Positions 2,517 to 33,040 of a stretch of DNA of 64,000 nt are shown in pieces (positions within the stretch are counted from its first letter, which is position 1; each line of letters opens with the position of its first letter). The stretch is from Chloroflexota bacterium. Lineage in GTDB: Bacteria > Chloroflexota > Dehalococcoidia > Lucifugimonadales > SAR202-VII-2. The notes below the pieces were generated by a model, which did not search any database, was not told where the DNA came from, and worked only from the letters and a program-made list of their open reading frames with translations. The position numbers and the translations under genes are program-made. The stretch spans positions 186,001 through 250,000 of the forward strand of contig QEVV01000001.1 of assembly GCA_003228115.1 (NCBI GenBank), in the 5' to 3' direction.

Positions 2517-3632
2517 CTAGCTTGCGGGGGCGGCCGCCCCTTCGCCGAAGAGCAACGTTTCTGGGTGGTAGTCCTTCCATGCAAACCAGAAGGAGTAGTT
2601 GCTGGGCAATTGTTGCAGCCTCTCACCGGCCAGCGGGCCCTCCAACGACTCCCCTGTAAGGCCGTCCCACAACGACGCGGTCTGCTCATCCCACATCCTA
2701 ACCTCACCGTGTTCAGGGTTCTCAATCTCTACGAAAGAAAGCTCTCTATCGTCGAGCCTGCGGCTGTACGTAGCGGCGAAATGGGTAAGGATGTCAAAAA
2801 CAATGAGGACTGGAATGTCTCCTGCCTGGTCGTTAAGGACGGGCTGAAAGGCCAACTCTTTGAATGGATAGGCCTTGGCCTCGCCTGCCATGAGAAGGCC
2901 AAGTACAAGGTCCTTCCTTCCAAGACGGTCGTCGGAGAAAGTCTCACCGATGATGCCCGGGGCGTTCGGGTCGTCATAGTAGCGGACGTAGGAGTCGAAA
3001 CGGAAACGCCCCGTACTGAGCAACAGAGTATCGGGGTGCACCTTCTTCCATGCGCCCCAGGTCGTCTGCACTGCGGGAATAAACTCCAGTTGCTGGCCCT
3101 TCAACTCGCCCTCAACGGCCTGGCCAAGAAAGTGGCTCCACAATGTGTCTGTCTGGTGGTCGTACATCACCAGAGCGTTCATGATGAGCTTGCCGGACAC
3201 TCCAAAGGTGAGTTCCCGTCCTGCGATATCCCGGGCATACACGATGCCCGAATAGCAGAGCGGTCACCAGGTCACCGCAACAGGCACACCTCCAACTACG
3301 TCGTTGACGATCTCATGACGGCTTAGGGTGGAAATTGGGTAGGCTCGGCTGTCCCCGTTAAGAGAAAGCGCAAGCACCAACTCATTATCCCGCAGATCTG
3401 TTCCTACCTCTTGGGCGGACACCAACGTTGGATCGAGGATTGCAGGTATGCCATCCTTGCTCAAGACCGTGACAATCCGATAGGTTCGGGGCTCCTCACC
3501 TGGCACTTCAACCGTTGTGCTGGTACGGAATAGCCCCGCTTGCCTGAGGAACGTTGGCCCAAACTGCCAAAAGCCTAGGGCAACAACGCCCAAGGCCGCA
3601 AAGTAGAGAAGTACTTTCACGACGGTAATCAC
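2517..3632 (-). CDS. DUF3179 protein, predicted selenoprotein (TGA read as Sec at residue 123)
   Basis: One gene interrupted by an in-frame TGA (3264-3266). The upstream part (122 codons from GTG at 3632) starts with a membrane anchor (VLLYFAALGVVALGFW) and ends GGVPVAVTW. The same frame resumes directly with PLCYSGIVYARD and ELTFGVSGKL. DUF3179 proteins carry the motif VTYCPLC at exactly this point, so TGA replaces the first Cys of CPLC and leaves UPLC. No frameshift is needed and the downstream domain is intact, including two similar segments, TTWGAWKKVHPDTL and SFWFAWKDYHPETL. A SECIS-like hairpin follows the TGA. Total length with Sec is 371 residues, as expected for the family. The biochemical function of DUF3179 is unknown; the CxxC suggests redox or metal binding outside the membrane. 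Alternatives are a recent nonsense mutation or a sequencing error. Confidence 0.82.
3230..3252 (-). promoter_or_regulatory. SECIS-like hairpin downstream of in-frame TGA
   Basis: On the minus strand, starting 14 nt after the TGA, a 7-bp perfect stem CGGGCAT/ATGCCCG closes a 5-nt loop CGTGT. Two G-U pairs can extend the base. The loop begins at nt 21 after TGA and has G at its second position. This fits the bacterial SECIS pattern as I know it: apical loop 16-37 nt from UGA, with a G in the first two loop bases. The hairpin lies inside the coding sequence, as in bacterial selenoprotein genes. Confidence 0.75.
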
Positions 3633-3866
3633 AGAACCACCCTTTGCTTACGGTGGTTTGATGTTGGCACAGAGCAAGCCGATGCAAGCCTACCATCGCC
3701 TGGAAGGCCGCCAGCTATTGGCATGCGCCGATTACCTCCCCTTCGGCAAAAGACGGGAAGTCGAAGGCCAACCAGGACGCGGCACACATGTTGGCGCCCG
3801 CCCTGCAGCTTGCTCGTGGTTGGATAGGTCAGCTACCATACTTTGAGAAAGGCCCGGGAGGAAAGG

Positions 3867-32728: not shown

Positions 32729-33040
32729 CTAAGGCCCAACATATATGTCCTCCCCCTCCACCCTGACCTGATAGACCTTGAGGGGCTGATCAGCTGGGTC
32801 CTCAATCACCTCGCCGGTAACCACGGAAAACTCGCTGCCATGGAAACCACAGATCACATGGTCATCCTCTAAATCGCCGCTGCCCCCCAGAGAAAAGTCT
32901 GCATGGGTGCATGCATCACTCACTGCATGAATGGTCCCCTTCACGTTAGCCAGGAGAACCTTCTCCTCTCCGAAGTCTACCGTCTTCAAACCACCCGGCT
33001 TTATTTCGCCGATCGTCGCTAGCTTCACGAAATCCGACAC
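32729..33040 (-). CDS. Rieske [2Fe-2S] ferredoxin
   Basis: 103 residues. The Rieske cluster motifs are ACTHADFSLG (C-x-H) and ICGFHGSEFSVVTG (C-x2-H), the spacing found in soluble ferredoxins of Rieske oxygenase systems and in NirD-like proteins. No TM helix, so cytoplasmic. The GTG start at 33040 is supported by GAGGAGG. The partner reductase/oxygenase is not in the immediate neighbourhood. Confidence 0.92.
   Translation of the reverse strand: MSDFVKLATIGEIKPGGLKTVDFGEEKVLLANVKGTIHAVSDACTHADFSLGGSGDLEDDHVICGFHGSEFSVVTGEVIEDPADQPLKVYQVRVEGEDIYVGP

Follow-up and report, generated by a model that had tools for sequence, protein, structure and literature searches.

A predicted selenocysteine-containing DUF3179 protein from a marine-type Chloroflexota bacterium and the hairpin behind its in-frame TGA

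Analysis of the gene on the minus strand at positions 2517..3632 of the window (the whole stretch of 64,000 nucleotides that was analyzed) leaves us almost certain that it is a genuine selenoprotein gene of the DUF3179 family. Its UGA codon would be translated as selenocysteine (Sec123) by means of a hairpin, giving an anchored two-domain product with a Sec/Cys pair acting in redox chemistry or, alternatively, in metal or metalloid binding. Work at the sequence level establishes the reading frame, the Sec machinery, the covariation of the SECIS-type hairpin, the Sec/Cys exchange among homologues, and an internal duplication of the protein, and the Sec reading of the TGA is strongly supported. 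The evidence for Sec in a DUF3179 protein is unusually complete here, with an RNA signal that dictates part of the protein sequence.

The gene, its TGA codon and the proposed product

Read-through translation of the minus strand from 3632 to 2517, with TGA taken as U, gave a single open frame of 371 residues, running from a GTG start at 3632 to a TAG stop (2519..2517) and containing one TGA (3266..3264). The sequence-only reading had described this TGA as the sole interruption of a continuous frame without stating the strand, and the translation bears the description out. A purine-rich AAAGGGTGG ahead of the GTG (3637..3645, minus strand) is a candidate ribosome binding site, as judged from the sequence. 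The Pfam family DUF3179 (PF11376) covers the whole read-through product (profile positions 1-292 of 292, 293 bits against a gathering score cut-off of 27), and homologues with the same TGA share 45-55% identity with the gene. Within the read-through protein, the TGA (3264..3266, minus strand) stands in the context VTW-U-PLCYSGIVYARD. Alignment with Cys homologues places it at the first Cys of CPLC, in agreement with what had been proposed, with the resolving Cys126 of VTW-U-PLC kept. U123 and C126 are the only cysteine-type residues of the protein, and UxxC is the sole conserved Cys pair of the family, no other Cys being conserved in the family alignments (A1 and A3). Standard ORF calling split the gene into ORFs of 122 and 241 aa, as had been anticipated. 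Because annotation by standard means cuts such genes in two, selenoproteins of the Chloroflexota are easily missed, and no in-depth treatment of them was found in the open-access literature searched.

For signals of this type, the decoding of UGA by SelB and Sec-tRNA with the help of a hairpin is well established. Applied to the present gene, SelB together with GTP and Sec-tRNA(Sec) would bind the hairpin that closely follows the UGA and decode the codon as Sec123; when selenium is absent, translation would stop at the UGA and leave a 122-residue fragment. The product would be membrane-anchored, probably extracytoplasmic, and composed of two homologous Rieske-like beta domains, with the active pair Sec123-Pro-Leu-Cys126 in the first domain only. 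Judged by the UxxC motif, Sec123 and Cys126 would most likely cycle between the selenol/thiol and the selenenylsulfide state and so serve a thiol-disulfide-type oxidoreductase as its redox centre.

The alternative that survives best accepts genuine Sec insertion and assigns the pair a non-redox role, in which Sec123 and Cys126 would bind a metal or metalloid (e.g., Cu, Hg, As, or Se species) and the product would be an extracytoplasmic binding or transfer protein. Metal-handling proteins also carry CxxC or UxxC motifs, the predicted fold resembles a metal-cluster fold, and Asp158, Thr161, and Trp165 are conserved in the second homologous loop. Weighing against metal binding, and making it rather unlikely in our view, neither a further conserved Cys nor an invariant His is found near the UxxC motif, and Sec usually serves redox chemistry in recognized selenoproteins (PMC9312934). 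We prefer the redox reading of the pair. The neighbours of the gene in the window encode an AAA ATPase, a chlorite dismutase-family protein, and a ferredoxin, and no conserved gene neighbour of DUF3179 emerged across 80 loci.

Selenocysteine machinery and the SECIS-type hairpin

The host genome (2.78 Mb, 58.6% GC, a draft of 18 contigs, 92% complete) harbors a tRNA-Sec with the anticodon UCA as well as selA, selB, and selD, with profile scores of 564, 362, and 386 bits, respectively. All four genes that the sequence-only reading had named as a check, i.e., selA, selB, selC (tRNA-Sec), and selD, are thus present in the same genome. The host selD (G000:C7:30580-31503, L023) carries an in-frame TGA of its own, so that SelD is probably a selenoprotein itself. 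In 464 kb of the host genome, comprising the window and the loci L199-L218, TGA ends 59 out of 295 long ORFs, compared with 164 ending in TAG and 72 in TAA, and in the window alone it ends two out of 43. TAG is strongly favored as a stop for a genome of this GC content. A reassigned TGA, read as Trp or Gly in this lineage, could draw on TGA not being the commonest stop, but is rejected as a next to impossible reading: the codon is an ordinary stop elsewhere in the genome, a full prfB (RF2) is present, the complete Sec machinery is encoded, and the in-domain TGA of the host's DUF3179 genes occurs only at the Cys column. Among the genes looked at, no housekeeping gene showed an in-frame TGA where Trp or Gly is conserved.

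The SECIS-type hairpin (3232..3250, minus strand) begins 14 nt after the TGA and has a 7-bp stem, CGGGCAU/AUGCCCG, closed by the 5-nt loop CGUGU. With the T of the TGA counted as position 1, CGGGCAU at 17-23 pairs with AUGCCCG at 29-35, i.e., 14-32 nt past the TGA, exactly as claimed from the letters alone. Bacterial SECIS elements are defined by a stem of 4-16 bp, a loop of 3-9 nt with a G in its first two bases, a distance of 16-37 nt from UGA to loop, and an energy at or below -7.5 kcal/mol (PMC13188914); the present hairpin lies within all of these bounds, with 20 nt from UGA to loop and a local fold energy of -11.9 kcal/mol. Folded alone it is unexceptional (z -0.8 to -2.4), so that its significance derives from conservation and not from lone folding. 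In-frame TGAs flanked on each side by 60 or more open codons were screened across the window, and only three of them have a SECIS-like hairpin behind them, the one in DUF3179 being in the frame of a recognized family.

The hairpin was compared between 79 distinct TGA sites and 60 homologous Cys sites, one of the latter being Ser. Over the seven stem pairs, 86% of the cells were paired in the TGA genes vs 43% in the Cys/Ser genes, a contrast partly confounded because the two sets differ in phylogeny. Shuffling of the 3' halves among the TGA genes gave a mean of 69% paired, with none of 2,000 shuffles reaching 86%, a test that relatedness of the genes inflates, and slid 3' partners were paired to 30-62%. 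In synonymous-codon shuffles, the TGA genes had a mean z of -1.39 and the Cys genes one of +0.02 (P 5e-11), subject to the same confounding by phylogeny. A G within the first two loop bases was found in all 79 TGA genes.

Compensatory changes were seen to keep the hairpin in the TGA genes only: the stem pairs 18-34 and 20-32 occur as both GC and CG, and the pair 21-31 occurs as CG, AT, TA, and TG. The encoded residues at +6/+10 after Sec vary in step, being Gly/Ala (GGC..GCC), Ala/Gly (GCC..GGC), Ala/Ser (GCT..AGC), Gly/Ser (GGA..TCC), or Ser/Ala (AGC..GCT) with the stem kept in each case; position +10 of Cys homologues is mostly Asp. Such residue swaps around a retained stem argue that the protein sequence has given way so that the RNA structure could be kept. 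Compensation through different codon pairs, seen again in separate subfamilies, is a stronger argument than either the contrast between the sets or the shuffles. On these comparisons, the hairpin is under selection in TGA genes, and the covariation across TGA homologues supports its proposed role as the Sec signal. With 79 distinct SECIS sites, this one family provides a clean natural experiment in which the RNA stem overrides the choice of amino acids flanking the loop.

Homologues and exchange of Sec and Cys

The host genome contains five DUF3179 genes, three of them with one TGA at the Cys column (UPLC, UTLC, and UPIC) and two with CPLC. A search of the same order covered 59 genomes, i.e., the host and 58 others, and detected DUF3179 in 32 and a TGA copy in 26 of these. 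A full selA is found in 22 of the 26, short selA fragments only in two, and none in the remaining two (74% and 81% complete); as selA is near-universal in the order, this co-occurrence is a weak test and adds little. In named genomes, TGA copies are found in Chloroflexota (Dehalococcoidia/SAR202, Caldilineae, and others), Deltaproteobacteria/Myxococcota, Poribacteria, Neomarinimicrobiota, and SAR324, which places Sec-DUF3179 in at least five bacterial groups. MAGs bearing the labels Chloroflexi, Dehalococcoidia, or SAR202 are the nearest named relatives, and none of the viral contigs searched encodes a relative.

A pseudogene or a sequencing error would make the TGA either a nonsense mutation or a TGC/TGT codon that was called wrongly. 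In favor of such a reading stand the draft state of the genome (18 contigs), the single-base change that would suffice to restore Cys, and the lack of selA in two low-completeness relatives with TGA copies. It is rejected, and in our estimation has hardly any probability left, because independent assemblies have the TGA at this column in 78 other distinct sites (79 in total), two additional paralogues of the same genome carry it as well, the hairpin is held by compensatory change, and the sequence behind the TGA is conserved. That sequence retains a mean identity of 41% compared with 50% before the TGA, so that the downstream decay that had been named as evidence against a selenoprotein is absent.

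Pairs of Sec and Cys at the TGA column, which the sequence-only reading had suggested looking for, occur in many homologues. The Sec subfamilies of DUF3179 display the motifs UPLC, UTLC, UPIC, UIKC, UVLC, and UPVC. The contig search used a closer set (A2), the alignment of all subfamilies being too diverse. The A2 patterns are biased toward the subfamily of the present gene and toward the Cys codon, so that the numbers of Sec and Cys copies cannot be read as frequencies. A tree of 132 sequences, built as a quick tree without a mixture model, implies 11 Sec/Cys switches by parsimony, at least five of which are forced by well-supported branches.

Several individual copies deserve mention. Cys copies in three genomes (L054 in G030, L052 in G036, and L092 in G009) are nested in the otherwise all-Sec UTLC clade and may have reverted from Sec to Cys; of these genomes, G030 is 97% complete and without a full selA. 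In G041 (91% complete, likewise without a full selA), the motif U/CPLC is replaced by SPIS at L040, with both redox residues lost, and the nearest relatives include Sec copies. In genome G261, where no selA was detected, an intact Cys copy is accompanied by a TGA copy that has a perfect hairpin and is cut short after approximately 221 residues (L197 and L198); decay after loss of the machinery, a contaminating contig, or assembly incompleteness could explain the latter. At L122, two adjacent DUF3179 genes, one with Cys (VTWCPLC) and the other with Sec (VTWUPLC), share one frame in a head-to-tail arrangement, and the homologues L160 and L164 have CPLT for CPLC, matching the UxxT form of published tables. 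Sec-to-Cys changes have been called rare in bacteria (PMC13188914). The switches among Sec, Cys, and Ser in this family, some of them likely Sec-to-Cys changes in genomes that lack selA, inform the question of selenoprotein gain and loss.

Predicted fold and comparison with known systems

The protein begins with a hydrophobic helix predicted for residues 2-31 (H2-31; 3540..3629, minus strand), a putative membrane anchor or export signal, and because of this helix the protein probably sits anchored on the outer side of the membrane, in an extracytoplasmic position. The N-terminal half with the UPLC motif (residues 58-215; 2988..3461, minus strand) and the C-terminal half without a Sec/Cys motif (2536..2936, minus strand) are homologous (hhalign 99.9%, E 1e-33), and a search with only the C-terminal half hits the first half of PF11376 (E 4e-24). 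By these profile comparisons, DUF3179 is a tandem duplication.

AlphaFold models reached a pLDDT of 92 for the whole protein and 94.2 for the N-terminal half alone. In VIA-align, the C-terminal half of the whole-protein model (rows spanning 248-364) and the N-terminal half folded alone each gave, among the matches listed (n=50), only Rieske folds, with best Z values of 8.8 and 8.5, respectively, the alignments covering about 92-97 residues per half and Z being near the background level of the tool. Foldseek E-values for the model were not significant, the Rieske profile PF00355 did not match the protein, hhalign against the host genome's own Rieske domains scored no better than shuffled columns, and the cluster ligands C-x-H and C-x2-H are absent from the protein. 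We accordingly speak of a resemblance in fold and not of membership in the Rieske family. Searches for a sequence match to a solved structure or to an NCBIfam model were equally negative. Each half is predicted to adopt a Rieske-like fold without [2Fe-2S] ligands, a prediction that offers the first testable idea for this domain of unknown function. CPLC was considered as the second Rieske ligand motif (CPxH) and rejected, as D158-x-x-T161-x-S/T-x-W and not UPLC sits at that loop, a placement drawn from the residues that the structural match spans and from a profile alignment that is weak. The 2.8-Mb host genome has 37 Rieske-domain matches, many in closely related oxygenase-like paralogues, one of the 37 lying in the window at about 32771-33028 on the minus strand.

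A tentative scenario, which we hold to be possible though doubtful, sees in DUF3179 a duplicated Rieske-fold protein that lost its Fe-S ligands, with the Sec-x-x-Cys of one half taking over as an extracytoplasmic redox centre, many switches between Cys and Sec, and several Sec paralogues in Chloroflexota.

The expectation that a Sec-containing DUF3179 protein was undescribed proved wrong, as DUF3179 (PF11376, motif UxxC/T) is already tabled as a predicted selenoprotein family in two reviews, which credit it to Zhang & Gladyshev 2007, Nucleic Acids Res 35:4952 (PMC9312934, PMC13188914). In view of these tables, the present gene is a further member of a known selenoprotein family. What appears to be new is the tandem duplication together with the Rieske-like fold that modeling predicts for each half; in the part of the literature searched, we found neither these nor the wide distribution, the several subfamilies, and the codon-level trace of the SECIS element.

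With the family of 2007, the present gene shares the Pfam family, Sec in the first position of UxxC, and Cys homologues at the same column. The 2007 report reportedly concerned a Sec-DUF3179 from the deltaproteobacterial symbiont of a gutless worm, whereas the gene described here belongs to the Chloroflexota, with three Sec paralogues in one genome and several subfamilies. With the bacterial SECIS model, the hairpin shares the 7-bp stem, the 5-nt loop, the G in the first two loop bases, the distance of 20 nt, and an energy below -7.5 kcal/mol; it shows no feature outside the model, the difference being that the encoded amino acids covary with it in an unusually visible way. With Rieske and Rieske-like proteins (PF00355 and the cluster-less NirD), the likeness lies in the fold predicted per half, the matches listed including the NirD-type structures 2jo6 and 3c0d. 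Unlike those proteins, DUF3179 lacks the C-x-H...C-x2-H set as well as a significant sequence match, is a tandem duplication by profile comparison, and carries a predicted Sec-x-x-Cys instead.
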